From the NCBI RefSeq assembly GCF_023330665.1, contig NZ_CP097127.1, positions 1,860,001-1,924,000 of the forward strand: 64,000 nucleotides of DNA, read 5' to 3'. A program made the translations under genes and the position numbers. Below the pieces are notes generated by a model. That model saw only the letters and a list, made by a program, of their open reading frames with translations, was not told the origin of the DNA and did not search any database. Source of the stretch: Conexibacter sp. S30A1 (GTDB lineage Bacteria; Actinomycetota; Thermoleophilia; Solirubrobacterales; Solirubrobacteraceae). Positions 36,144 through 48,641 of the stretch are shown one piece after another. Position 1 is the stretch's first letter; every line of letters starts with the position of its first letter.

Positions 36144-36160
36144 TAGGAGCTGTTGCCGAG

Positions 36161-36250
36161 CGGCGCCAGCGGGCACGGCACCGGCGGGCACGGCGCCAGC
36201 GAGCACGGCGCCAGCGGGCACGGCGCCAGCGGGCACGGCGCCGGCGAGCA
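36161..36250. repeat. Six tandem copies of a 15-bp repeat
   Basis: Units of CGGCGCCAGCGGGCA (15 bp) begin at 36161, 36176, 36191, 36206, 36221 and 36236 with one to three substitutions each, then decay. Any frame through it gives a five-residue Ala/Gly/Pro repeat, but there is no credible gene. A shorter pair of GCCGCGGACCGC units lies at 36016-36027 and 36030-36041. Confidence 0.85.
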
Positions 36251-36920: not shown

Positions 36921-38411
36921 ATGGCGCAGCACGCAGCTGCCGTGGATGTCTTCAGGCCCCTCGACGAGGCCGAGATCACGCAGAAGCACTGGCTGACGGT
37001 GATCACCGCGGGGATGGGCTTCTTCACCGACGCCTATGACCTCTTCATCATCGGCACGGTCACGGTGCTGCTGACGCCGATCTTCCACCTGAGCACCGGC
37101 CAGATCTCGCTGCTCAACTCGATCTCGCTGCTCGCCTCGGTGTTTGGCGCCCTGGCCTTTGGCCGGCTGATGGACCGACTGGGCCGCAAGCGCGTATACG
37201 GTCTTGAGGTCGCACTGCTCTCCCTCGGCGCGGTGCTCTCGGGCCTCTCCTGGAGCTTCACCTCGCTTCTGATCTTCCGGATCATCGTCGGCATCGGCGT
37301 TGGCGGTGATTACGCAACCTCGGCCGTGATCACTGCGGAGTACGCCAACCGCAGGTCGCGCGGCCGCCTGGTCGGCAGCGTCTTTGCGATGCAGGGACTT
37401 GGCCTGGTCGCCGGACCGGCGATCGCCTCCATCTTCCTCGGCGCTGGCGTCTCCGACCATGTCGCCTGGCGGGTGATGCTGGCGCTCGGCGCGATCCCAG
37501 CCATCTCGGTCGTCTACCTGCGCCGCAGGATCAAGGAGACCCCGCGCTACCGGCTCGCCGTGGAGGGTGACCTGGCAGGCGCCGCTGCTGCGGTCAGCTG
37601 GACGCTCGACGGCACCGCGGCGGACTCTGCCGCTGGCGCCAACGGCTCGGCACGGCCAACGGCTGGCGGGCCAACCTTGAGCGAGCGCATGGCACGTGTG
37701 CGGCCGTCAGCGCTGCGCCAACTGACGCGCCGGCCGTACCTGCTGCGCCTGATCGGTACCGCGGGTTGCTGGTTTTTGCTCGATGTGGCCTTCTACGGCA
37801 ACTCCGTGTCGAGCCCGCTGATCCTCAAGCAGCTCGAGCCCAAGGGCACGCTGCTCGCGCACACGCTCACCTCGCTGGCGATCTTCGCGATCGCCGCCTT
37901 CCCCGGCTACTGGGTGGCGGTCATGCTGCTCGACAAGATCGGGCGCAAGCGGATCCAGTGGCAGGGCTTTCTGGTGATGGCGATCGCCTTTGGCGCGATC
38001 GGGCTGATCCCCGGCGTCGCGCAGGACACCGCCCCGTTCCTGGTCCTGTTTGCGATCAGCTACTTCTTCATCGAGTTCGGGCCGAACATGACGACCTTCG
38101 TCTACCCCTCCGAGGTGTACCCGACAGCCGTACGCGGCATCGGCGACGGAATCTCAGCCGGGTCGGGCAAGTTCGGTGCGTTCCTCGGCGCACTGCTGGT
38201 CCCGCACCTGCTGAAGTCGGTCGGGATCTCCGGGGTCATGGAGATCATGGCCGTGGTCTCCGTGATCGGGGTCGCCCTGACACTGATCACGCTGCCCGAG
38301 CCAATGGGCAAGACGCTCGAGGACTCATCACAGGACACGGCCGCCGCGGGACCGCCGCTCGTCGCGGCGGCGGCAGCCGGCCAACCGGTGAGCGTCGCCT
38401 CGCGGGCCTGA
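36921..38411 (+). CDS. MFS carrier of the phosphate:H+ symporter-like (PHS) group
   Basis: A 496-residue protein with 12 predicted helices and a central cytoplasmic loop of about 70 residues. The segment VGIGVGGDYATSAVITAEYA matches the PHS-type signature (GGDYxxSA..xxEy), and YDLFIIGTV and GRLMDRLGRKRVYG are typical of that group. Phosphate or an organic anion is a likely substrate. The tail is Ala-rich. ATG at 36921 has AGGAGCAG upstream. The 190-bp divergent spacer to the DUF1801 gene contains AT-richer sequence around 36815-36840, but I could not define a promoter or Pho box. Confidence 0.83.
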   Translation: MAQHAAAVDVFRPLDEAEITQKHWLTVITAGMGFFTDAYDLFIIGTVTVLLTPIFHLSTGQISLLNSISLLASVFGALAFGRLMDRLGRKRVYGLEVALLSLGAVLSGLSWSFTSLLIFRIIVGIGVGGDYATSAVITAEYANRRSRGRLVGSVFAMQGLGLVAGPAIASIFLGAGVSDHVAWRVMLALGAIPAISVVYLRRRIKETPRYRLAVEGDLAGAAAAVSWTLDGTAADSAAGANGSARPTAGGPTLSERMARVRPSALRQLTRRPYLLRLIGTAGCWFLLDVAFYGNSVSSPLILKQLEPKGTLLAHTLTSLAIFAIAAFPGYWVAVMLLDKIGRKRIQWQGFLVMAIAFGAIGLIPGVAQDTAPFLVLFAISYFFIEFGPNMTTFVYPSEVYPTAVRGIGDGISAGSGKFGAFLGALLVPHLLKSVGISGVMEIMAVVSVIGVALTLITLPEPMGKTLEDSSQDTAAAGPPLVAAAAAGQPVSVASRA

Positions 38412-38446
38412 CAACCGCGAACCCCGCAGCCGTTCAGCCCCGAAAG

Positions 38447-38486
38447 CAAACGTCCCGCCCGGCGCTGGCGCCGGGCGGGACGTTTG
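38447..38486. terminator. 19-bp perfect hairpin, bidirectional terminator
   Basis: Arms CAAACGTCCCGCCCGGCGC (38447-38465) and GCGCCGGGCGGGACGTTTG (38468-38486) are exact complements. It lies between the convergent MFS carrier and sigma factor genes and is flanked by short A/T runs on each strand (AAA and TTT at the stem base), fitting a two-way terminator. Confidence 0.85.
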
Positions 38487-38529
38487 GCTCAGGTTGTGCT
38501 CTGGTCCGGACGGGACCGGGGTGACAGCC

Positions 38530-39507
38530 TCAGGCTGCCTGGCGCAGGGCCGCCAGCTCGGGGTGGCGAGCCAGGGTGCTGAGCGCACGGCGCTCAAGCT
38601 CACCGGCCTGCGAGGTGGTGATGCCGAGCTCGGCACCGGTCTGACGGATCGTGCGCGGCTCATCGCCGCCGAGGCCGAAGCGCAGCTCGAGCACGTTGCG
38701 CTCGAGCTCGGGCAGGCGAGCGAGAACCTCGGCCACCTGCGCGTCGCGCCAGTTGTCGGCGGCGTGCTCCTCGGGGCCACGCTCGTCACTGCGCAGCAGG
38801 TCACCGAGCGCCGTCTCACCGTCGTCGCCAACCGGCTGGTCGAGGCTCGTGATCGCAGCAGAGAGCTCGCGCACCTCGGTCACCTGCTCGATCGGCAGGT
38901 CGGCCACGGCCGCAACCTCCTCGTCGGTGGGCTCACGGCCGAGCTTCAGCGCCAGCTCGGACTCAACCTTGCGGACCTTGACCTGGCGCTGGGCGACGTG
39001 CACCGGAACGCGGATCGTGCGACCCGAGTTCTGGAGCCCGCGCTGAATCGCCTGGCGAATCCACAGCGTGCCGTAGGTGGAGAACTTGAAGCCCTTGCGC
39101 CAGTCGAACTTCTCGACGGCGCGGATCAGGCCGAGCATCCCCTCCTGAACGAGGTCCTCGAGTGGTAGCCCGTGGCCCTGGTAACGGCGAGCCTGCGCCA
39201 CAACCAGACGCAGGTTGGCGTTGATCATGCGCGTCTTGGCGTCGAGATCGCCGCGCTCGATGCGCTTGGCGAGCTCGATCTCCTCGGCGGCGGTCAGCAG
39301 CTCATGGGTGCGGGCCTCGCGGAAGAAGATCTCGAGCGACTCCATGGAGCCGTCGAGCACCGGCGCGGCCGCGCGACGGCGAGACGTGCGCGTGCTGAGC
39401 GGCGTCCCCCGGCGGTCGTGCTGCGCGCTGGCAGTGGTGTTGCGACGCGTGGCGCGAGCAGTCTCTTTCTCGTTGTGCTCGCCTCTGGTGCGGGTCTTTG
39501 GTGTCAT
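38530..39507 (-). CDS. RNA polymerase sigma-70 family factor with divergent region 4.2
   Basis: A 325-residue sigma factor of group 1/2 architecture, lacking region 1.1. A basic lead of about 50 residues precedes region 1.2. Regions 2.1-2.4 are canonical (EDLVQEGMLGLIRAVEKFDW; FKFSTYGTLWIRQAIQRGLQ) and region 3 includes RTIRVPVHVAQRQVKVRKVE. Region 4.2 is unusual: the -35 recognition helix reads GITTSQAGELERRAL (about 295-309) instead of the usual SRERVRQIE-type sequence. It is therefore likely an alternative sigma factor with altered -35 contacts. A near-consensus promoter lies 37 bp upstream. Confidence 0.9.
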   Translation of the reverse strand: MTPKTRTRGEHNEKETARATRRNTTASAQHDRRGTPLSTRTSRRRAAAPVLDGSMESLEIFFREARTHELLTAAEEIELAKRIERGDLDAKTRMINANLRLVVAQARRYQGHGLPLEDLVQEGMLGLIRAVEKFDWRKGFKFSTYGTLWIRQAIQRGLQNSGRTIRVPVHVAQRQVKVRKVESELALKLGREPTDEEVAAVADLPIEQVTEVRELSAAITSLDQPVGDDGETALGDLLRSDERGPEEHAADNWRDAQVAEVLARLPELERNVLELRFGLGGDEPRTIRQTGAELGITTSQAGELERRALSTLARHPELAALRQAA

Positions 39508-39543
39508 TGGCTTGTTCTCGTTCGTTATTTTGAAGATGATCGA

Positions 39544-39571
39544 ATTATACGTCTACGTAAAGTTCTGTCAA
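39544..39571 (-). promoter_or_regulatory. Near-consensus sigma-70 promoter for the sigma factor gene
   Basis: On the minus strand TTGACA (39571-39566) is followed after 16 bp by TATAAT (39549-39544). Both hexamers are exact sigma-70 consensus. Transcription should begin near 39537, leaving an untranslated leader of about 30 nt before the ATG at 39507. Such a perfect promoter is rare in this GC-rich window and points to strong housekeeping transcription. Confidence 0.85.
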
Positions 39572-39898
39572 GTTCTTGCGGTTCCTGCGTGAGCCGTCCG
39601 GTCCGAACCAAATTCGCCCGCCGGAAGCTTTCGGGCGTCTGTGCTGGAGGGCGCTGCTGGTCGCCCTGACCTACTGCTTACCGCTTTGCCACCCAACAAC
39701 ACTCAACGCACCACAGCGATGCGTAAGTCCTTGCTAAGAAGTGACGAAGTTCGTGTTGGCGAGCCAGATCGGGAAATCGGCCGCCGACGGCAAAACTGAA
39801 AGCTCCGACCCGCGCACGGCCGGCTTCCTGCATCATCTACACGAACGTGCGCGGCCCGTTACGCGCAGTCATGGCTGCACGCGGGCCGGCCGCCGTGG
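39572..39898. other. Gene-free stretch between sigma-factor promoter and ArsR gene
   Basis: About 330 bp with no convincing open frame on either strand. The GC content drops around 39680-39770 (for example GCGTAAGTCCTTGCTAAGAA). Short frames here have no family character. A GGTTCG-like word on the minus strand near 39600 suggested a tRNA arm, but the rest of a cloverleaf is absent. A small RNA cannot be excluded. Confidence 0.5.
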
Positions 39899-40219
39899 CT
39901 ACGCGCAGGCCTCGTGGCCGTCGACATGCTGCAGGACGCAGTCGAGCAGGCCCGGGAAGCGTCCCTCCAGCTCGTCGCCGCGCAGCGACACCAGCCGCTG
40001 AACACCCTCGGAGCGCGTGTAGGTCAGTCCGGCGTCGCGCAGGACGCGCAGGTGATGGGTGAGCGTGGACTTGGACACCGGCACCCCAAGACTCCCGCAG
40101 GAGAGCTCGTTGTGGAGAGCCAACACGCGAACGATCTCAAGCCGCACGGGGTCACTGAGCGCATGCAGCACGTCGGTTAGATCGAGCTGTTCGGGGTCGG
40201 GGTGTGCGATCACTCGCAT
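39899..40219 (-). CDS. ArsR-type winged-helix transcriptional regulator
   Basis: A 106-residue repressor-like protein. LSDPVRLEIVRVLALHNELS and the recognition helix VSKSTLTHHLRVLRDAGL are classic ArsR/SmtB winged helix. It lacks the ELCVCDL metal site; Cys41 is near the equivalent place. The C-terminus CVLQHVDGHEACA clusters two Cys and two His, which could sense metal or oxidant, but that is inference. The usual self-regulated transporter partner is not adjacent. Confidence 0.85.
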   Translation of the reverse strand: MRVIAHPDPEQLDLTDVLHALSDPVRLEIVRVLALHNELSCGSLGVPVSKSTLTHHLRVLRDAGLTYTRSEGVQRLVSLRGDELEGRFPGLLDCVLQHVDGHEACA

Positions 40220-40302
40220 CTGACGCTCACGAAGCTGGGCCTGCGTGCCGGCACGCGTGATCAGGATAGCGACGCCGCGGGGAGTTCTCCGACGCGCCCT
40301 GC

Positions 40303-41082
40303 CTACCCGCCGAGCGCCTCAAGCGCCTGCTCGTGCAGCAGGCCGTTGGTGGCAAGACCACTGCCGGCACCCGGACCACTGACCCCATTCAGCCCGCTGA
40401 AGCGCCCGCCAGCCTCCTCGACGACGATCGACACAGCCGCGAGGTCCCAGAGCGTCGCCTCCGGGTCGGTGGCGATCTCCGCCGCGCCCTCGGCGACCAG
40501 CATGTACTGCCAGCTGTCACCGACGCCGCGCGTGCGCCAGCAGCGCCGCCCCAGGTCGAGCACGCGCTGGAAGGCGCCGATCGCGTCCCACTCCTCGATG
40601 CCGCTCCAGACGAACTGGGCGTGTGCCAGGTCGCCGACCGCGGAGACCGCAAGGCGCCGCCCGTCGGCGTAAGCGCCGCCGCCCCGCACCGCCCACCAGC
40701 GCTTGCGCATCGCCGGCATCGAGACCATGCCCACCTTCACCTCGCCGTCCTCGAGCAGCGCGATCAGCGTCGTCCAGGTGTCCATCCCGCGCACGTAGCT
40801 CTTGGTCCCGTCGATCGGGTCGATCACCCACGCGCGCCCCGGCTCGCCCGCCGCCTCCACCCCGCCGAACTCCTCGCCGATGATCCGGTCGGCCGGCCGC
40901 GCCACGGCCAGCCGTTCGCGCAGCACCCGCTCGCAGGCCTTGTCGGACTCCGACACCGGCGTCATGTCCGGCTTGGTCTCAACCGCCAGATCGGCGGCCC
41001 GGTAGCGCGCCATCGTCACCGCATCGGCGGCGTCAGCCAGCTCGAAGGCGAGCTTCAGATCATCTTCATAGGGGGTGTTCAT
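40303..41082 (-). CDS. Inositol-monophosphatase family phosphatase (HisN/ImpA-like)
   Basis: A 259-residue Mg-dependent phosphatase. Motif A IIGEEFG and motif B WVIDPIDGTKSYVRGMDTWT, with the metal-binding Asp pair, are clear. The C-terminal motif ATLWDLAAVSIVVEEAGG completes the fold. WVIDPIDGTKSY with a following RG is often seen in histidinol-phosphatases of the HisN type, so histidine biosynthesis is possible, but inositol phosphate cannot be excluded. The start is ATG at 41082, divergent from the peptidase gene with 28 bp between them. Confidence 0.85.
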   Translation of the reverse strand: MNTPYEDDLKLAFELADAADAVTMARYRAADLAVETKPDMTPVSESDKACERVLRERLAVARPADRIIGEEFGGVEAAGEPGRAWVIDPIDGTKSYVRGMDTWTTLIALLEDGEVKVGMVSMPAMRKRWWAVRGGGAYADGRRLAVSAVGDLAHAQFVWSGIEEWDAIGAFQRVLDLGRRCWRTRGVGDSWQYMLVAEGAAEIATDPEATLWDLAAVSIVVEEAGGRFSGLNGVSGPGAGSGLATNGLLHEQALEALGG

Positions 41083-41110
41083 GGCGGCCGATCCTAGTAC
41101 GCTCGGCGTC

Positions 41111-42439
41111 ATGGCCGCCTACAGCGTCAGTGCCGCCGACCTGCAGCCGGAGACGACCGAGCTGCTGCAGCGACTGGTCCGCTTCAACACGGTCAACCCG
41201 CCCGGCAACGAGCGTGAGGCGATTGAGCACCTGCAAGCCTACGTCGCCGACGCCGGCTTTGAGACCGAGCTCTTGGCCGCCACCCCCGAGCGGCCGAACC
41301 TGGTCGCGACGCTTGCGGGGCACTCGGCCGACGGCCCCACGCTGGTGTTTTTGGGCCACGTCGACACGGTGCTAGCCGCGGCGGCGGACTGGCAGCACGA
41401 CCCGTGGAGCGGCGATCTGGCCGACGGCTTTTTGTGGGGCCGGGGCGCGCTTGACATGAAAAGCCAGGTGGCCGCCGAGGCGGTCGCCGCCGTCACGCTC
41501 GCCCGCGCCGGCTGGCGCCCTGTGCGCGGCGCGCTGAAGCTCGTGTTCGTCTCAGACGAGGAAACCGGCGGTGCGGTGGGCGCCCGCTGGCTGACCGAGC
41601 AGCACCCGGATCGGGTCCGCTGCGACTACCTCGTCAACGAGGGCGCGGCCAGCCCCTTCGAGCTCGATGGCCAGCGCTACTACGGCGTCTGCTGCGGCGA
41701 GAAGGGGATCTACCGCTTCCGCCTGACCGCGCACGGCACCGCCGGCCACGCGTCGATGCCGCGGCTGGGTGACAACGCGCTGCTGAAGCTGGCCCCGGTG
41801 ATAGAGGCGCTGGCACCAGGCTCAAGCGGCTATGACCCGACACCGGCGGCGCTGGCGCTGATCGAGGCGCTCGGCGAGGACCCGAGCGACCTCCCCGCCG
41901 CGATCGCCAGCCTGCGTGCGCGCCACAGCGCCCTGCCCGTGATCGTCGAGCCGATGCTCGCGGTGACGCTCACCCCGACGATGGCGGGGGCGTCTGAGAA
42001 GATCAACGTGATCCCCGCTCGCGCCTGGCTGAAGGTCGACACGCGCGTGCCACCCGGCCTGGGCGCCGAGGTCGCGCTCGCACGCCTGCGCGAGCGCCTC
42101 GGCGCGGCAGCGGCGGGCCTGGAGATCGAGTTCACCGAGCAGGTGCCCGGCTACGCCTCCCCGCATCGCAGCGAGCTGATGGACGCGATCGAGCGCTGGC
42201 TGGCCGCGGCCGACCCGGACGCGCGGGCGGTGCCGGTGCTCTTGCCGGGCTACTCGGACTCGAGCTACTTCCGAGCCGCCTTCCCGGACCTGATCGCCTA
42301 CGGCTTCTTCCCGCACCGCCACCAGACGCTGTTTGAGTCAGCGCCGCTGGTCCACAACGCCGACGAGCGCATCGACGTGCGCGACCTCGGTTACGCGGCG
42401 AGCTTCTACGCGGCGCTGGCGCGCGAGCTGTTGGGCTGA
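41111..42439 (+). CDS. M20-family metallopeptidase (ArgE/DapE/CPG2 group)
   Basis: A 442-residue di-zinc amidohydrolase. Motifs are LVFLGHVDTVLA (His and Asp zinc region), WGRGALDMKSQVAAE with the bridging Asp, and VSDEETGGAVGARWL with the catalytic Glu pair. A dimerisation (lid) domain occupies the middle, and the last zinc histidine is in YGFFPHRHQTLF. The true substrate (acyl-amino acid or dipeptide) is not readable. The last 13 codons of this gene are part of an 84-bp sequence repeated downstream at 43909-43992. Confidence 0.9.
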   Translation: MAAYSVSAADLQPETTELLQRLVRFNTVNPPGNEREAIEHLQAYVADAGFETELLAATPERPNLVATLAGHSADGPTLVFLGHVDTVLAAAADWQHDPWSGDLADGFLWGRGALDMKSQVAAEAVAAVTLARAGWRPVRGALKLVFVSDEETGGAVGARWLTEQHPDRVRCDYLVNEGAASPFELDGQRYYGVCCGEKGIYRFRLTAHGTAGHASMPRLGDNALLKLAPVIEALAPGSSGYDPTPAALALIEALGEDPSDLPAAIASLRARHSALPVIVEPMLAVTLTPTMAGASEKINVIPARAWLKVDTRVPPGLGAEVALARLRERLGAAAAGLEIEFTEQVPGYASPHRSELMDAIERWLAAADPDARAVPVLLPGYSDSSYFRAAFPDLIAYGFFPHRHQTLFESAPLVHNADERIDVRDLGYAASFYAALARELLG

Positions 42440-42485
42440 GCGCCCACCGCCGGGGCCGCCGGCCCGCTGGCCGGCGGCCCGGACC
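42402..42485. repeat. 84-bp direct repeat, left copy
   Basis: This segment covers the last codons and stop of the M20 gene plus the hairpin behind it. It matches 43909-43992 at 81 of 84 positions. Differences are two adjacent bases at the M20 stop region (CTGAG here, CGCAG there) and one base in CACCGCC/CACCCCC. The two copies bracket a 1423-bp insert carrying the AAA/DUF4143 gene. Confidence 0.95.
42453..42480. terminator. 12-bp perfect hairpin after the M20 gene
   Basis: Arms GGGCCGCCGGCC (42453-42464) and GGCCGGCGGCCC (42469-42480) close a CGCT loop. It lies inside the left 84-bp repeat and probably ends M20 transcription on the plus strand. Confidence 0.7.
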
Positions 42486-42526
42486 AGGCCGGGATCTACA
42501 AGCGGCGACGAGCCTCTGCCCTCAGG

Positions 42527-43810
42527 CTACGGACCGAGCAGGGCGAGTGGAACGACGGCGACGCCGTCCGGTCGCCGGTAGGCGACGGGGCCGGTGTTGA
42601 TGACGATGCGGTCGATAACCCGCTCACCGTACTTGCCGGCCAGCCAGGCCAGATGGCGCAGGTCGTGGCCCGAGAGGGTCCCGCCCAGCTTCACCTCGAC
42701 GGCGAGCACCTTGCCCTCGGGGTTGGTGAGCATCAGGTCGATCTCGTGGTCACCGTTACGGGTCCGCAGGTGTGAGACGGTTGCCTCGCATCGCTGAGCG
42801 AGCACCCTGACGCTGAGGGTTACCAGCGACTGAAACAGGCGCCCAAGCATCGTGCCGTGCTGCGGACCCAGCGGCGTGCCCGCCCCGTCAAGCAGCGACT
42901 GATGGGTGAGGCCGAGCAGGCGGGCGGCCAGGGCCGGGTCTGCCAGATGGTGGATGGGAGTCTGCCCAAGGCGGGCGAACGCTCCTGCGACCGGCGCCCA
43001 AGCCGGCAGTGGGTCGAGCAGCCAGAGCTGCCGCAGCGCGTCTCTGTAGGCGATGGTGGTGGAGCGAGCGGGCTTCTCGCCGACACCGGCGGTGGCGGCG
43101 TCGAGGATCGAGGTGTAGCTCGCGGTGCTGGCGGTCGCCGCGGCATAGGCGCGCAGCCAATCAAGCAAGGCCGCCGGTTTGCGGACGGCAAGGCCCTGCT
43201 CGGGGATGTCGCGGTCGACGGCGTTGTACAGGTAGCTGTCGAGCTCGCCTCGGAGCAGACGGTCGGGGAGGCCACGCAACCCCGGGAAGCCCGACGCCAT
43301 GATCTCCTCGACGTAATCGACCAGGCGCACCTCGGTGTCACCCTCGACGGCTCCGGCGGTCCCGCTGAGCAGGCGCTCGAGACTGACCGTCGGGGTCGCG
43401 ACGCCGCGTTCACTGAAGGCCAGGGGCCGCATGCGCAGGCGAGTGATACGACCCGCACCGGAGTGGGCGGTTGCGCCGGGCGCCACCGTCGCGCTGCCGG
43501 TGAGCAGGAACTGACCGGGAGCCCTGTCTCGGTCGACGGCTCGGCGTACGACATCCCATACCTCCGGGACCTTCTGCCACTCGTCGATCAACACCGGGCG
43601 CGGACGGATCAAGATCGACTCGGGATCTGCCGCAACGGGCTCGCGGACCGGACCCGAGTCGAGCGCGACGACGCTCCGCGCACGCGCCTGCGACGTGGAC
43701 GTCTTGCCCACTGCCTTGGCGCCGTCGATGGCGACGGCGGGCAGCGCGTCCAGAAGCATGTCGAGCTCGTCATCGAGCACCCTGCGCCGGTAGCCCATGC
43801 CTTCAATCAT
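42527..43810 (-). CDS. AAA ATPase with DUF4143 C-terminal domain
   Basis: A 427-residue protein (423 if ATG at 43798 is used, which has a better ribosome site, GAAGG). The N-terminal P-loop domain has Walker A DGAKAVGKTSTS (29-40), Walker B PVLIDEWQKVPEVWD (from about 72) and sensor LLTGSATV. The C-terminal DUF4143 region ends with a PD-(D/E)xK-like array: Asp358 in HEIDLML and ExK in LAVEVKLGG (Glu372, Lys374). Such proteins are widely scattered in bacteria and archaea and often transferred; their function is not established. The gene sits alone in an insert bracketed by 84-bp direct repeats, with three spaced boxes at its start. Confidence 0.88.
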   Translation of the reverse strand: MIEGMGYRRRVLDDELDMLLDALPAVAIDGAKAVGKTSTSQARARSVVALDSGPVREPVAADPESILIRPRPVLIDEWQKVPEVWDVVRRAVDRDRAPGQFLLTGSATVAPGATAHSGAGRITRLRMRPLAFSERGVATPTVSLERLLSGTAGAVEGDTEVRLVDYVEEIMASGFPGLRGLPDRLLRGELDSYLYNAVDRDIPEQGLAVRKPAALLDWLRAYAAATASTASYTSILDAATAGVGEKPARSTTIAYRDALRQLWLLDPLPAWAPVAGAFARLGQTPIHHLADPALAARLLGLTHQSLLDGAGTPLGPQHGTMLGRLFQSLVTLSVRVLAQRCEATVSHLRTRNGDHEIDLMLTNPEGKVLAVEVKLGGTLSGHDLRHLAWLAGKYGERVIDRIVINTGPVAYRRPDGVAVVPLALLGP

Positions 43811-43878
43811 ACGGTTAGCCGACGCTCAACACTACAGTTAGCAGGCTCCAAACGCTACATCTAGCACCGCTGATGGCA
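43810..43878 (-). promoter_or_regulatory. Three 10-bp boxes at exact 23-bp spacing upstream of the AAA/DUF4143 gene
   Basis: Plus-strand boxes TACGGTTAGC (43810-43819), TACAGTTAGC (43833-43842) and TACATCTAGC (43856-43865) start 23 bp apart, about two helical turns, so a protein would meet them on one DNA face. The spacers are also similar (GCTCAAC.. and GCTCCAAAC..). The first box touches the ATG. They look like operator sites or iterons for a factor controlling this gene, possibly its own product. Confidence 0.7.
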
Positions 43879-43908
43879 CAGCTGACGGCGAATGCAACCG
43901 TTTCCATG

Positions 43909-43992
43909 GCTTCTACGCGGCGCTGGCGCGCGAGCTGTTGGGCGCAGCGCCCACCCCCGGGGCCGCCGGCCCGCTGGCCGGCGGCCCGGACC
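43909..43992. repeat. 84-bp direct repeat, right copy
   Basis: Right partner of 42402-42485. Read on the minus strand it encodes the last 26 residues and TAG stop of the MFS exporter. The same TAG is conserved in the left copy at 42406-42408, inside M20 antisense. This means the M20 and MFS genes once overlapped tail to tail before the insert separated them. Confidence 0.93.
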
Positions 43993-45241
43993 CGGCGTCT
44001 GCCGTCAGCCGCCGGGCCGAGCGCGGGATCAGCGCCCCAAGCGCGCTCAGCATGCCGAGCGCGGCACCCACGCCGAGCACCCAGCGCACACCGACGCCGG
44101 CGGCCAGCGGGCCGACGGCGGCGTAGCCAAGCGGCATCAACGCCAAGGAGCCCATGTGGTCCCAGGCGCTCACGCGCGAGAGCGCGCCCGGCGGGATGTG
44201 GCGGGCGAGCGTCGTCTCCCACCAGACGCCGGTGAGCGCGCCGGCGCCACCGGAGATCAGAGCGCCGGCGACCAGCACCACGCGCGGCAGGCCGAGCGCC
44301 ACCAGCAGCCCGATCAATGGCCACAGCGCGCCGAGCGCGAGCGCCAGGCGCAGCGGGCGGCGTGGGTGCAGAACGGTGGCCAGCAGCGACGCGACCAGCG
44401 AGCCGGCGCCGTAGATCGCGATCAGCAGGCCGAACAGCCCGACGCTGCCGTAGGCGTCCCTGACCGCCAGCGGGCCGAGCCCCATCAGCGGCACCACCGT
44501 GCACAGGGTCACGGCGGTGTAGGCGATGATCGTCACCCACAGCCAGCTGCGCGAGCGGACCTCGCGGTAGCCGGCCCTCAGGTCGGTGATGAAGCTGGCA
44601 GCGGCGCCGGCACCTGAGGCCGCGCGCGACTGCACCGCGCCCGCCGGCGCAAAACCCCCAGCCCGCCCGCGCCGCCTGGGCCTGACCGGCAACAGCAGCA
44701 CCGCCCCGAGCGCGAAGCTCGCGCCGTCAAAGACAAACGCCTCGCCCGCGCCGAGCGAGAGCACCACCGCGGTTGCCAGGAGCGGGCCGATGACGATCGA
44801 GGCGTTCTCGAGCGTGCCGCGCAACGCCTGCGCTGACTGGATCTCCGACTCGGGCACCGTCTGGGGCACGAGCCCGACGTAGGCCGGCTGGAAGAACGCC
44901 TCGGCCACGCCGGAGGCGGCCTCGATCAGCGCGATCAGCCAGATCGCGGGTGCGCCTGTGAGGATCAGCACGCCGAGCGCGGTGTGCAACAGCGCGCGGG
45001 TGCTGTCGCTTGCGATCACCACCCGGTGGCGCGGCAGGCGGTCGGCCCACACACCGCCAAAGACGATCAGCGCCACGAACGGCAGCGAGCCCGCGCCGAG
45101 GATCACCGACAGGTCCGTGGCCGAGCCGGTGCGCCGGGTGATGTAGAGCGCCATCGCGACGATCACGGCCTGGGTGCCGATCTGGCTGGCGGACTGGCCG
45201 ATGAAGAGCAGGCGAAAGTCGCGGTGTCGCAAGACGCGCAT
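43913..45241 (-). CDS. MFS transporter (efflux type)
   Basis: A 442-residue carrier with 12 predicted helices and a central loop. LRHRDFRLLFIGQSASQIG at the N-terminus and VWADRLPRHRVVIASDSTRA (the loop 2-3 motif) are typical of the enterobactin/macrolide exporter-like MFS group. PAYVGLVPQTVPESEIQSAQ follows. The last 26 residues, Gly/Pro/Ala-rich, are encoded by the right 84-bp repeat. It is divergent from the nicotinate phosphoribosyltransferase-like gene with only 26 bp between starts. The substrate is unknown. Confidence 0.88.
   Translation of the reverse strand: MRVLRHRDFRLLFIGQSASQIGTQAVIVAMALYITRRTGSATDLSVILGAGSLPFVALIVFGGVWADRLPRHRVVIASDSTRALLHTALGVLILTGAPAIWLIALIEAASGVAEAFFQPAYVGLVPQTVPESEIQSAQALRGTLENASIVIGPLLATAVVLSLGAGEAFVFDGASFALGAVLLLPVRPRRRGRAGGFAPAGAVQSRAASGAGAAASFITDLRAGYREVRSRSWLWVTIIAYTAVTLCTVVPLMGLGPLAVRDAYGSVGLFGLLIAIYGAGSLVASLLATVLHPRRPLRLALALGALWPLIGLLVALGLPRVVLVAGALISGGAGALTGVWWETTLARHIPPGALSRVSAWDHMGSLALMPLGYAAVGPLAAGVGVRWVLGVGAALGMLSALGALIPRSARRLTADAGSGPPASGPAAPGVGAAPNSSRASAA
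43960..43987. terminator. 12-bp perfect hairpin, right-repeat copy
   Basis: Same stem as at 42453-42480. Here it lies within the 3' coding end of the MFS gene and upstream of the AAA insert. Confidence 0.5.
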
Positions 45242-45267
45242 GGCCGCCCTGACTGTAGGCTGCGCGC

Positions 45268-46362
45268 ATGTCAGCAGCCCCCCGCACGCGTCTTGCGCCC
45301 GAGGTCTTCAGGCTGCCCGTCGCGCGGCTGCGCGAGGGCTACTACTCGGACGCGTACTTCGTCTACACCAAGCAGCTCCTGGAGGAGGTCGGCCACCGCC
45401 CGCGGGTGCTGCTGCAGGTCTTCCAGAAGCATCACTCGCGCCTGGGCGGGATCGACGAGGCGATCGCGATGCTGAAGCTGGCTGCCGGCCAGCGGGGGCC
45501 GGACGGCAGGTGGATCCCTGGCTGGGAGAAGCTCGAGGTGCACGCGCTATATGAAGGCGATCCCATCGAGCCGTGGGAGACGGTGCTGACGATCGAGGGC
45601 GAGTACCCGCTGTTCGCGCACCTGGAGACCGTGTATCTGGGCTCACTGGCGCGCCGCTCGCTGATCATGCGCAACGTCGATGCGGTCGTGCGCGCCGCCC
45701 GCGGCAAGCCGATCCTCTACTTCCCCGCCCGGCACGACCACTGGCACGTGCAGACCGGCGACGGCTGGGCGGCGCACGTGGCGGGCGCGATTGGCGTCTC
45801 CACCGACGCGCAGGCATCCTGGTGGGGCGGGCGCGGCGTCGGGACCGTTCCGCACGGGCTGATCGCCGCCTACGGCGGCGACACGGTGGCAGCCGCGCGC
45901 GTGTTCGCGGAGCGCTTCCACGCGGAGATGAACATCACCGTGCTGGTGGACTTTGACAACGACAGTCCGCGCACGGCGGTCGAGGTGGCGCGGGCGCTCG
46001 GACCGCAGCTGTGGGGGGTCAGGCTCGATACATCGGAGCGCATGGTCGACCGCTCGCTGATCGACTCGATGGGCGAGTTCGATCCGCGCGGCGTGAACCC
46101 GCAACTGGTTGCCAATGTGCGCCAGGCGCTGGACGGCGCCGGTTTTGGCGACGTTCGGATCGTCGTCAGCGGTGGTTTCACGGCAGAGAAGATCGACCGC
46201 TTCGAACGGCTCGGCGTGCCGGTTGACGCCTACGGTGTCGGCTCGTCACTGATCCGCGGTCAAAACGACTACACCGCCGACGTGGTGATGGTGGACGGAC
46301 GTCCGTGCGCCAAGGCGGGACGCTCCTACCGCCCCAACCCACGGCTGGAGAGGGTCCTGTAG
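45268..46362 (+). CDS. Nicotinate phosphoribosyltransferase-like protein
   Basis: A 364-residue enzyme of the quinolinate/nicotinate phosphoribosyltransferase fold. LREGYYSDAYFVYTKQLLEE opens the N-terminal domain, YEGDPIEPWETVLTIEGEY matches the lid region, and the barrel has VSTDAQASWWGGRGVGTVPHG, VLVDFDNDSPRTAVEVARAL and RIVVSGGFTAEKIDRFERLG (phosphate loop). It probably makes nicotinate mononucleotide from nicotinate and PRPP in NAD salvage. It is followed after two bases by the epimerase-like gene. Confidence 0.83.
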   Translation: MSAAPRTRLAPEVFRLPVARLREGYYSDAYFVYTKQLLEEVGHRPRVLLQVFQKHHSRLGGIDEAIAMLKLAAGQRGPDGRWIPGWEKLEVHALYEGDPIEPWETVLTIEGEYPLFAHLETVYLGSLARRSLIMRNVDAVVRAARGKPILYFPARHDHWHVQTGDGWAAHVAGAIGVSTDAQASWWGGRGVGTVPHGLIAAYGGDTVAAARVFAERFHAEMNITVLVDFDNDSPRTAVEVARALGPQLWGVRLDTSERMVDRSLIDSMGEFDPRGVNPQLVANVRQALDGAGFGDVRIVVSGGFTAEKIDRFERLGVPVDAYGVGSSLIRGQNDYTADVVMVDGRPCAKAGRSYRPNPRLERVL

Positions 46363-46364
46363 AG

Positions 46365-46775
46365 GTGTTCGACGCGATCGACCATGTGGGCGTCGCGGTG
46401 AGCGATCTGGAGGCGGCGGTGGCCTTTCACCGCGACGTGCTGGGGATGGTGCTGGTGCACCGCGAGACGCTCGCCGAGCAGGGCGTGCGGGCGGCGCTGC
46501 TCGATGTCGGAGACTCGCACGTGGAGCTGCTCGAGCCGCTCGGCGGTGATGGCGCGGTGGCCAGGTTCCTCGCGCGGCGTGGCCCCGGCCTGCACCACGT
46601 GGCCTACCGTGTAAGTGACATCGAGGCAGCGCTGGCTAGTCTGTCGGCTGCGGGCACGCGCCTGATCGACGCGCGGCCACGCGACGGGATCCGCGGCTCA
46701 CGGGTCGCGTTCATGCACCCGTCCGCCACCGGCGGCGTGCTGACCGAGCTAGTGCAACCCTCAGACCACCACTGA
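46365..46775 (+). CDS. VOC-family methylmalonyl-CoA epimerase-like protein
   Basis: A 136-residue glyoxalase-fold protein. FDAIDHVGVAVSDLEAAVAF begins the first beta-alpha-beta-beta module with a metal-binding His, and GPGLHHVAYRVSDIEAALA begins the second. VAFMHPSATGGVLTELVQ ends it with the metal Glu. Pattern and length fit methylmalonyl-CoA epimerase of propionate metabolism. I chose the GTG at 46365, two bases after the preceding stop, with GGAG upstream; the frame is open further into that gene. Confidence 0.85.
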   Translation: MFDAIDHVGVAVSDLEAAVAFHRDVLGMVLVHRETLAEQGVRAALLDVGDSHVELLEPLGGDGAVARFLARRGPGLHHVAYRVSDIEAALASLSAAGTRLIDARPRDGIRGSRVAFMHPSATGGVLTELVQPSDHH

Positions 46776-46794
46776 CAAGCGAGGAGCTTCGCAG

Positions 46795-47016
46795 ATGAAC
46801 GCAGAGGACAGGCCACAGAAGATCAGCATCGGCTTCCACGGCGGCCAGACGCTGGCCGCGCGGGTGCGCGGCGCGGAGCTCGAGCGGTTGCGGGAGGTGC
46901 TCGGCAAGAGCGGCGGCTGGCACGAGCTGCACGCCGAGGACGCGACGGTCAGCTTCGACCTCACGCGCGTTGACTACCTGCTGGTCGAAAACGACGAGCA
47001 CCGCGTCGGCTTCTGA
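46795..47016 (+). CDS. Small conserved-looking hypothetical protein
   Basis: A 73-residue protein with a clear GAGGAG ribosome site before its ATG. It has a predicted beta-alpha-beta pattern: KISIGFHGGQTLAARV, a helix ELERLREVLGK, then ATVSFDLTRVDYLLVENDEH. The layout loosely resembles the small DUF3107-type actinobacterial proteins, but I cannot claim homology. It lies in a rightward run between the epimerase-like gene and the PAP2 gene. Function unknown. Confidence 0.7.
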   Translation: MNAEDRPQKISIGFHGGQTLAARVRGAELERLREVLGKSGGWHELHAEDATVSFDLTRVDYLLVENDEHRVGF

Positions 47017-47037
47017 GGACTGGAAGCGCTGAACGCC

Positions 47038-47565
47038 TTGAGGACCATGCTCGCGCCGGCGGTCGCACTCGACCGCCGGCTGCTCGTCCTGGCCCGCACA
47101 CGCGGCCACGCGGACCCGCGCCTGGTCACCGGTGCGCGCACGTTCTCGCGCGCCGGTGAACACGCCGCCTGCTGGTTTGCGCTGGGTGGCGCGGGCCTTT
47201 TGCTCAGCCCGCGCGGGTCGGAGCGCCGGCGTGCCTTCAGGCGCGGCCTGGCGGTGACGGGCGCCGCCTACGGACTCAACTACGCGGTCAAGCTGACCGC
47301 CAGGCGACCACGGCCGGTACTCGAAGGGCTGCCGGCGCTGTCCCCGGTGGTCTCCGACATGTCGTTTCCGAGCGCTCACGCAACCACCTCGTTCGCCGCC
47401 GCCGCCGCCTACAGCCGGGCGCTGCCGCTGGCCACACCGCTTTTGTATGCGACCGCGACCCTGATGGCGGCGAGCAGGCCCTACCTGGGTGTGCACTACC
47501 CGAGCGACGTCGCCGCCGGCGCGCTGCTCGGCACCGTCACCGGGAGGCTTCTGCGGTGCCAATGA
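47038..47565 (+). CDS. PAP2-superfamily membrane phosphatase
   Basis: A 175-residue membrane protein with about four hydrophobic helices and the three phosphatase motifs: KLTARRPRP, FPSAHATTS (PSGH variant) and SRPYLGVHYPSDVAAG. It probably dephosphorylates undecaprenyl pyrophosphate or another lipid phosphate on the outer face. The start begins with a short Leu/Arg segment. Its TGA overlaps the ychF ATG as ATGA. Confidence 0.88.
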   Translation: MRTMLAPAVALDRRLLVLARTRGHADPRLVTGARTFSRAGEHAACWFALGGAGLLLSPRGSERRRAFRRGLAVTGAAYGLNYAVKLTARRPRPVLEGLPALSPVVSDMSFPSAHATTSFAAAAAYSRALPLATPLLYATATLMAASRPYLGVHYPSDVAAGALLGTVTGRLLRCQ

Positions 47566-48641
47566 AGGTCGGGATCGTCGGCATGCCCAACGCCGGCAAA
47601 TCGTCGCTGTTCAGCGCGCTCACAGGCGTGGCCGCCGAGGCGGCCAACTACCCGTTCACGACGATCGAGCCGAACGTCGCCGTGGTGCCGGTGGAGGACG
47701 AGCGCATGCGCCAGGTCGCACAGACCGTGCGCGCCTCGAAGATCGTCTGGGACACGATCGCCTTCCACGACATCGCCGGCCTGGTCGCCGGGGCGCACAG
47801 GGGCGAGGGCCTCGGTAACCAGTTTTTGGCCAACATCCGTGAGACCGACGCGCTGCTGCACGTCGTGCGCGCCCACACCGACAGCGGCATCGTGCACTCC
47901 GAGGGGAGCGTCGACCCGCTGCGCGACATCGAGACGATCGAGACCGAGCTGATGTACGCGGACCTGGAGCAGGCGCAGCGGCGGCTTGAGCGCGTCGTGC
48001 GCCAGGCGCGCGGCGGCGACAGACACGCGATCGCCGAACAGCACTGGCTCGAGCAGGTCGTGGAGGCGCTCGGGGCAGGCAGGCCGGTGCGCACCGTACC
48101 GGTGCCGGAGGAGGCTCCGGACGCGGTGACACTGCTCGGCTCGCTGACCGCAAAGCCGGTGCTGTTCGTCGCCAACGTCAACGAGGGCGAGGGCGACGTG
48201 CCGGCCGCGATCGCCGACTACGCGGCTTCCCAGGGCGCCCGCGCGGTGGCGGTCTCCGCGCGCCTGGAGTCTGAGCTGGGGGCGCTCGAGGCGGCGGAGG
48301 CAGCGGAGCTGCGCGCCGAGTTCGGGCTCGAGCAGTCGGGCCTGCAGAAGGTCGTGCGCAGCGCCTTTGAGCTGCTTGACCTGATCGCCTTCTTCACCGC
48401 CGGCGAGGACAAGCCGGCACAGACCTGGCATCTGCGCCGTGGACTCAGCGCCTGGCACGCCGCCGGCCAGATCCACTCAGACATTCAGCGCGGCTTCGTC
48501 CGCGCCGAGGTCGTCTCCTGGGAGGCACTCGTGCAGTTCGGCGGCTACGCCGGCGCGCGCGAGCACGCCGCGCTGCGGCTCGAGGGCCGCGACTACGCGA
48601 TCCAGGACGGTGACGTGATCACCGTCAAGTTCACGCCCTGA
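47562..48641 (+). CDS. ychF: Redox-regulated ribosome-associated ATPase YchF
   Basis: A 359-residue OBG-like P-loop protein. G1 is VGIVGMPNAGKSSLFSAL, G2/G3 YPFTTIEPNV and HDIAGLVAGAHRGEGLGN. A coiled insertion follows, and the TGS domain at the end includes YAIQDGDVITVKFTP. The family prefers ATP to GTP and binds ribosomes, with a role in stress response. I chose ATG 47562 over the GTG two codons earlier because it makes the ATGA overlap with the PAP2 gene. Confidence 0.95.
   Translation: MKVGIVGMPNAGKSSLFSALTGVAAEAANYPFTTIEPNVAVVPVEDERMRQVAQTVRASKIVWDTIAFHDIAGLVAGAHRGEGLGNQFLANIRETDALLHVVRAHTDSGIVHSEGSVDPLRDIETIETELMYADLEQAQRRLERVVRQARGGDRHAIAEQHWLEQVVEALGAGRPVRTVPVPEEAPDAVTLLGSLTAKPVLFVANVNEGEGDVPAAIADYAASQGARAVAVSARLESELGALEAAEAAELRAEFGLEQSGLQKVVRSAFELLDLIAFFTAGEDKPAQTWHLRRGLSAWHAAGQIHSDIQRGFVRAEVVSWEALVQFGGYAGAREHAALRLEGRDYAIQDGDVITVKFTP

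Follow-up and report, generated by a model that had tools for sequence, protein, structure and literature searches.

A single-gene DUF4143 ATPase unit inserted between 88-bp direct repeats at the overlapping 3' ends of two convergent genes in Conexibacter

Phages and genomic islands that integrate at the 3' end of a gene restore the end of their target by a duplicated segment, normally carry their own integrase and are far larger than the element described here. In a stretch of 64,000 nucleotides from Conexibacter sp. S30A1 (contig NZ_CP097127.1, positions 1,860,001 to 1,924,000; the window) a 1.4-kb cassette between the 3' ends of an M20-family peptidase gene and an MFS transporter gene likewise restores its target 3' end, but it holds a single gene, for an AAA_14/DUF4143 ATPase, and no integrase was seen in it. 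The closest described systems are built similarly. In the relevant passages of PMC5704250 cis-mobilizable elements (CIMEs) are described as bounded by attL/attR-like repeats of a tRNA or gene end, devoid of integrase and transfer genes, and growing by tandem accretion. The window unit resembles them as it has direct repeats at a gene end, with a presumed attachment (att) function, and an empty site, and as it contains one gene only and none for integration or transfer. It differs in that a CIME is a decayed integrative and conjugative element (ICE) or integrative and mobilizable element (IME), whereas here a single gene is hugged by repeats, and in that the DUF4143 family recurs at unrelated targets in several phyla. 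No ICE or IME remnant was seen in the window unit, and its tight single-gene boundaries speak against an origin by decay.

Hitcher genetic elements, including arrays known as clusters of attC sites lacking integron-integrases (CALIN), are, in the passages of PMC11389934 concerned with them, cassettes without an integrase of their own that need a helper in trans. The window cassette shares the missing integrase, but the repeats read here are ends of host genes or tRNAs. The protein itself belongs to a known candidate system: PMC12988326 describes, in the passages on it, PDC-S01 as an ATPase fused to a PD-(D/E)-X-K member and ranks it fourth among prokaryotic defences by frequency, most PDCs still awaiting validation. 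The window ATPase matches the PADLOC PDC-S01 profile (E 3e-72) and is thus a candidate defence gene, but those same passages are silent on flanking repeats, 23-bp repeats and a cassette build. We file the unit as an integrase-less, end-restoring mini-cassette of a CIME- or hitcher-like kind, with DUF4143 as recurrent cargo.

The longest direct repeat within positions 38000-48000 is 88 nt long (42402-42489 and 43909-43996, 84/88 identical, 95%), and it is the sole pair listed in a same-strand self-comparison of the window (E <= 1e-8, at least 45 bp). The 84-bp repeat with 81 matches described in a previous reading of the letters alone (the sequence-only reading) lies inside it. As that reading had stated, the 1423 bp separating the 84-bp copies hold one gene, confirmed by Pfam as AAA_14/DUF4143, and by eye no transposase or integrase was seen in the list of open reading frames (ORFs) between the repeat copies. 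Alignment of the upstream with the downstream flank gave a score of 156; among 600 cross-locus pairs the 99th percentile was 33 and the highest score 43. A transposon is defined by a transposase gene and a short target duplication; here no transposase ORF was seen and the duplication spans 88 bp. Across the genome (3.46 Mb) only two of the 34 matches listed cover the full 88 bp, the other 32 being 23-50 bp long, falling mostly in the GC-rich palindromic part and including the palindromes of both 88-bp copies themselves. A dispersed repeat, the identity that would have argued against a cassette, is ruled out because full-length matches occur only at these two copies. The features of the locus are as follows (G075, G081 and G074 are genomes of relatives).

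41075-42439, plus strand: M20-family peptidase gene (Pfam Peptidase_M20, E 1e-26); its final 38 bp, with the stop codon at 42437-42439, lie inside the left repeat
42402-42489, plus strand: left copy of the 88-bp direct repeat (M20 3' end and palindromic spacer), 84/88 against the right copy
42453-42480, second copy at 43960-43987, no strand: 28-nt GC-rich palindrome from the inverted-repeat search, a putative terminator-like stem
42490-43908, no strand: inserted unit of 1419 bp, present in G075, absent from G081 and G074
42527-43810, minus strand: AAA_14 + DUF4143 ATPase gene, 427 aa (Pfam matches)
43810-43819, 43833-43842 and 43856-43865, minus strand: three GCTAnnnGTA-type repeats, 23 bp apart, read from the sequence
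43909-43996, plus strand: right copy of the 88-bp direct repeat (MFS 3' end), from the repeat search
43913-45241, minus strand: MFS transporter gene; its stop codon (43913-43915) lies 4 bp inside the right repeat

The 1.4-kb unit is a real insertion into the overlapping 3' ends of two convergent genes. When 30 M20 loci of the bacterial family were searched with blastn, insert-like sequence was found at the window locus and in G075 only. The next closest loci by M20 identity, G081 (91%) and G074 (89%), both have a single uninterrupted copy of the junction; the remaining 26 of the 30 are more diverged or cut by contig ends, and junctions were read individually only in the closest. These empty sites, together with the occupied one, agree with the sequence-only reading, which had proposed a small self-contained cassette that left its neighbours unharmed and had suggested a check of relatives for a single repeat copy. 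The one relative found with the ATPase at this junction, G075, does have the repeats: its right copy extends as far as the contig does, and of its left copy only the M20 half of 39 bp is left (37/39 matching), the palindromic half being gone (L010 / L043). According to the stop positions the 3' ends of the M20 and MFS genes overlap by 34 bp in the empty G074 and by 4 bp in G081, and within the window repeat the stop codons of MFS and M20 are at offsets 4 and 35, respectively. The whole ancestral overlap is thus located in the duplicated stretch and therefore each gene keeps its own complete end; insertion into that overlap without duplication would have cut a gene. The junction bases read CTGTTGGG in both window copies and in the right copy of G075, CTCTTGGG in the left copy of G075, CTGCTGGG in G081 and CTGCTCGG in G074. 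As CTGTTGGG is shared and the window copies differ at only 4/88 positions, the duplication looks younger than the G081/G074 split.

The window ATPase matches DUF4143 (PF13635; E 7e-19, 68.5 bits, cut-off 28.1) and AAA_14 (PF13173; E 6e-12, 46.1 bits, cut-off 27) in Pfam. Six residues are invariant in both alignments (22 and 48 sequences), and we take them to form a predicted Walker A motif (K36), a Walker B motif (D76-E77) and a PD-(D/E)xK-like site (D358, E372, K374). In a Foldseek search with an AlphaFold2 model (mean predicted local distance difference test score 91.8, predicted TM-score (pTM) 0.92) the best match was the archaeal ATPase 2qen (E 3e-6); the matches also included 2fna, another archaeal ATPase, and, lower down, Cdc6/Orc1, RuvB, clamp loaders and the CARF nucleases Card1 and Can2. 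All matches had a TM-score of at most 0.42 by query length, and no transposition protein was seen among the best 50. For the five proteins searched, PHROGs gave no match and NCBIfam a single chance-level match to one of them. Relatives of the ATPase are present in 45 of 146 genomes of the bacterial family, in line with the patchy distribution noted before. Proteins 79-84% identical to it occur in Gordonia amarae and one other bacterium; within its own family such similarity is reached only by G075, which has this very insertion, and by the pieces of a broken copy in G074 (71-82%), and the other full-length family copies listed share at most 60% identity. Wide horizontal spread is supported, as close relatives lie outside the family and own-family copies are mostly distant. 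Carriage by plasmids or phages is rare in the collections searched, with relatives in 14 of 72,556 records for plasmids and in 4 of 50,697 for phages.

Upstream of the gene lies an array of short repeats. We examined the 170 bp before the start codon for a 16-base window matching at least 13 positions at a lag of 23. This periodicity was found in 57% of 70 DUF4143 genes of the family and in 64% of 80 genes from GTDB genomes, as compared to 2% of 210 control ORFs, and no other lag between 8 and 44 is conspicuous apart from 22, seen in 11% of the 70. In a set of named genomes, partly chosen for repeats, the array was present in 50% of 32 genes, and in Pseudomonadota in 28% of 25. By eye, the array words vary by subfamily while the spacing is constant, with GCTAnnnGTA-like words in the subfamily of the window. 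The gene-proximal repeat of the window shares one base with the start codon, and as this last repeat touches the ATG the ATPase may bind the array and repress itself. In L286 and L335 near-identical palindromes located directly before the start codon and just past the stop codon take the place of the array, and by eye L288 and L293 have a feature of similar type at the start codon.

A minority of DUF4143 genes elsewhere also sit between long direct repeats, sometimes in tandem. For each gene the 600-700 bp before it were aligned with the 500 bp after it. The threshold score of 44 was chosen after the nulls were known (99% at 33, highest values 47 and 106), and a later null set gave single values of 60, 239 and, in the named set, 1060, which came from related loci. 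The controls were ordinary ORFs rather than accessory genes selected as such, and the test, looking 600 bp upstream only, missed L369. By this test, direct repeats flank 26 of 196 unselected DUF4143 genes but only 2 of 230 other ORFs. The 26 comprise 7/67 from the family, 10/75 from GTDB, 5/29 from Bacteroidota and 4/25 from Pseudomonadota, the last two sets being best-scoring rather than random DUF4143 loci; they count one event twice (L042/L043) and include three related Mycobacteriaceae loci (L119, L126, L127), palindrome cases (L286, L335), a tandem remnant (L330) and weak cases (L051, L164). We use this count instead of the pooled 30 of 212 clusters (Fisher p 2e-8) because the pooled set contains genomes picked for a visible repeat. 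For the final count 5 of 239 genes were removed because they duplicated others exactly, and 6 of 234 because their flanks were too short; in the scan of other phyla 12 of 44 named and 3 of 30 Pseudomonadota loci had been dropped by rule as lacking the gene, and three genes had flanks that were too short.

Among the 70 family genes the top scores were 225, 206, 167, 156 (window), 82 and 68 (G075, the same event). Eleven of the 80 GTDB loci, which were reached with the alignment of 22 relatives, score at least 46, while 2 of 263 other ORFs at GTDB loci reach 44, one of them itself a second DUF4143 gene. In the genome of the window none of the 258 ORFs of sampled stretches passes, among them its second DUF4143 gene (score 34). 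The repeat-bearing units are mostly 1.2-1.8 kb long, with 2 of 39 exceeding 2 kb. Target types, read for these loci only and with gene names other than those of tRNAs assigned by eye, are the M20/MFS ends, the ends of a LuxR-like gene (L065) and of an HTH-like one (L101), a 3' half resembling that of a tRNA (L048), tRNA-Ala (L119, L126, L127) and a glycerate-kinase-like gene (L369). At L048 ARAGORN detected no complete tRNA, though the 41-bp repeat reads like a tRNA 3' half; the ATPase genes of L048 (G096) and L186 (G155) are at least 97% identical and have the same 41-bp repeat. An empty site for L065 was not found, there being no close relative (4 of 24 genomes matched, best other at 55%). 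By eye, no common terminal sequence was noticed at the insert boundaries in the cases inspected. At L330:647-2353 a DUF4143 gene has a 161-bp direct repeat, and behind the second copy an apparent promoter and the start of a truncated further copy were observed, i.e. a tandem remnant.

Units of the same build are present elsewhere in the genome of the window (G000). In 864 kb of it, 40 roughly evenly spaced stretches plus the window taken without choosing for DUF4143, nine direct-repeat pairs were found (at least 35 bp, 80% identity, 0.5-5 kb spacing), one being that of the window. Another pair brackets the second DUF4143 gene of the genome (L369:13989-16341; G000:C1 ~2.164-2.166 Mb), which is preceded by 22-bp repeats and has an intact glycerate-kinase-like gene ahead of it and a decayed 5'-truncated piece of the same gene behind. 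A lone AAA ATPase of 421 aa lies between 44-bp copies of a tRNA-Val 3' end (L377:179-1897; G000:C1 ~2.838-2.840 Mb), a PIN-domain gene between 36-bp direct repeats resembling a gene 3' end (L382:16883-18431; G000:C1 ~3.285 Mb), and a pair of tRNA-Met 3' ends surrounds 3.4 kb including an AbiEi-like gene (L360). The remaining four pairs (L360, L362 twice, L374), one of which was left unassigned, look by eye like paralogous genes or an insertion sequence present in two copies. The lone AAA ATPase has relatives, often distant ones, in 35 of the 146 family genomes. Phage_integrase matches were obtained in 7 of 7 genomes searched, 24 of them in G000. In a different part of the window (~36160-36250) a short reiterated sequence, translated as (AGAVP)n from one strand and as (GTAPA)n from its complement, lies beside a gene that resembles, by eye, an ABC-transporter permease gene.

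A second hotspot is tRNA-Ala(GGC): in Mycobacteriaceae an ATPase cassette is located behind it, and the final 43 bp of the tRNA recur past the gene. At 30 loci beside the neighbouring MFS gene, two carry the ATPase (G146, G148), 25 have one core copy and no ATPase in the stretch examined, L251 has two copies and two lack a core match. G197 encodes an identical MFS protein, is 97.5% identical to G146 in nucleotide sequence over 2.9 kb up to the tRNA, and has a single core copy and no ATPase in the 0.9 kb examined, its other flank being unlike G146 beyond ~55 bp; G247 resumes the match to G146 past the site, with a difference of ~3.3 kb that exceeds the cassette. As the G197 flank diverges and the G247 difference is too large, we treat this site as a case of presence and absence rather than a two-sided empty site. 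Several cassettes may follow each other there:

L127:4629-9155, L133:2244-6374 and L251: tandem cassette arrays ending in copies of the tRNA-Ala(GGC) 3' end

L127 has four core copies, the first within the tRNA, around DUF4143 genes of two subfamilies and a 0.9-kb segment in which a search for a DUF4143 remnant gave only weak matches (best E 0.004), and L133 has a similar array. In L251 two core copies surround 0.8 kb that contain a BrnT toxin gene (Pfam E 2e-23) together with another small ORF, a candidate antitoxin that matched no Pfam family. No integrase was noticed in the L127, L133 and L251 arrays. Repeats of the TGACGACA type near the ends are common to the tRNA-Ala cassettes and look by eye like integrase arm sites, and one of three contigs from the viral collection with the tRNA-Ala core has a tyrosine integrase right behind the tRNA. 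The tRNA-Ala data are the strongest evidence that DUF4143 is cargo, and not its own mover, at that site. The 34-bp ancestral overlap, the 23-bp array, these tandem cassettes, the cassettes without DUF4143 and the PDC-S01 label all go beyond the sequence-only reading.

We hold with moderate confidence that the unit is a single-gene mobile cassette, probably integrated in trans at att-like gene ends or by homology, with a putatively autoregulatory array. The 1.4-kb unit, consisting of the ATPase/DUF4143 gene and its own 23-bp repeats, has entered the overlapping 3' ends of the convergent genes, leaving 88 bp of junction on both sides, and each gene has kept its end. The long repeats would be attachment-type sites or segments of homology, and integration would proceed either in trans by a site-specific recombinase or through homologous recombination of a circle carrying the gene-end segment. 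Integration in trans is suggested by the lack of a recombinase in the unit and by the different cargo, BrnT, a lone AAA ATPase or a PIN gene, of other units built in this way. The 23-bp repeats may be binding sites through which the ATPase-nuclease regulates its own promoter, in keeping with a single gene of the addiction or defence type. A route other than ordinary transposition, as first proposed, is supported, with a recombinase from elsewhere and circle homology remaining the two leading routes. Several findings weigh against this cassette model. No helper recombinase was identified for the M20-MFS site, and no arm-type sites were seen beside the 88-bp repeat. At tRNA-Ala five relatives were compared, and in none of them do both flanks align with nothing but the cassette absent. 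The array is found in 0 of 30 Bacteroidota genes. Aligned repeat lengths range from 28 to 233 columns, with one case perhaps above 800 bp, which is wider than one integrase would give. About 87% of the unselected DUF4143 genes show no repeat by our test; the check suggested by the sequence-only reading, for direct repeats around other DUF4143 genes, succeeded for a minority (26/196). Finally, in the lone AAA ATPase family a repeat is present in only 1 of 29 copies tested, the one found in the census; as this other lone-ATPase family so rarely shows a repeat, DUF4143 may be more than chance cargo.

The last point bears on a rather unlikely alternative, that DUF4143 moves itself by assembling on the 23-bp repeats and making widely staggered nicks near gene ends, with fill-in giving variable long duplications. 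What the unrelated targets in several phyla have in common is this gene, most repeat-bearing units are 1.2-1.8 kb long with repeats close to the gene, the ATPase and nuclease-type residues are invariant, and in some members a palindrome lies at either end of the gene (L286, L335), all of which suit this mechanism. However, the BrnT, lone-AAA and PIN cassettes are built in the same way without DUF4143, which leads us to favour recombination in trans, and inspection by eye revealed no common terminal sequence. At tRNA-Ala and tRNA-Val the repeats correspond to the 3' part of the tRNA, as is often the case for integrase sites. That DUF4143 (PDC-S01) is an autonomous, partly selfish one-gene element which binds its own 23-bp repeats and inserts at gene ends is accordingly a claim that we regard as distinctly doubtful; self-mobilisation would be the more surprising reading. 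Homologous, Campbell-type integration of a circle or other incoming DNA carrying the gene-end segment and the ATPase is, taken alone, a rather unlikely explanation. It would fit the variable repeat lengths, the truncated glycerate-kinase-like copy at L369, which suggests a duplication far longer than an att core, and the two window copies being nearly the same local allele, but leaves the tRNA 3'-end cores and the entry into new target genes unexplained. Capture of a DNA fragment by end joining at a double-strand break with staggered ends, both of which are filled in, would fit the clean insertion with a single duplication and the fact that no common ends were noticed; recurrence with the same gene family and tandem cassettes is unexpected of random capture, making this very unlikely. 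Least probable, to the point of being hardly credible, is an ancestral insert lost precisely from G081 and G074 through recombination between the repeats: such loss would leave an identical single copy, but the window copies and the right copy of G075 share CTGTTGGG, unlike G081 and G074, and the two window copies have diverged so little.

The cassette is real, recurs in a minority of the family and is undescribed in the literature searched, where, mainly at abstract level, we recognised no description of flanking or 23-bp repeats for DUF4143; it bears on what PDC-S01 is. If DUF4143 genes move as single-gene cassettes flanked by duplicated gene ends, many of them with a common 23-bp array, this would provide two handles on them, the DNA target of the protein and a measurable mobility. 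Travel as a cassette would help to explain the patchy spread of the family without a phage or plasmid carrier. Should the gene mobilise itself, a 'defence system' that ranks among the commonest in prokaryotes would in part, if not wholly, be a selfish element.

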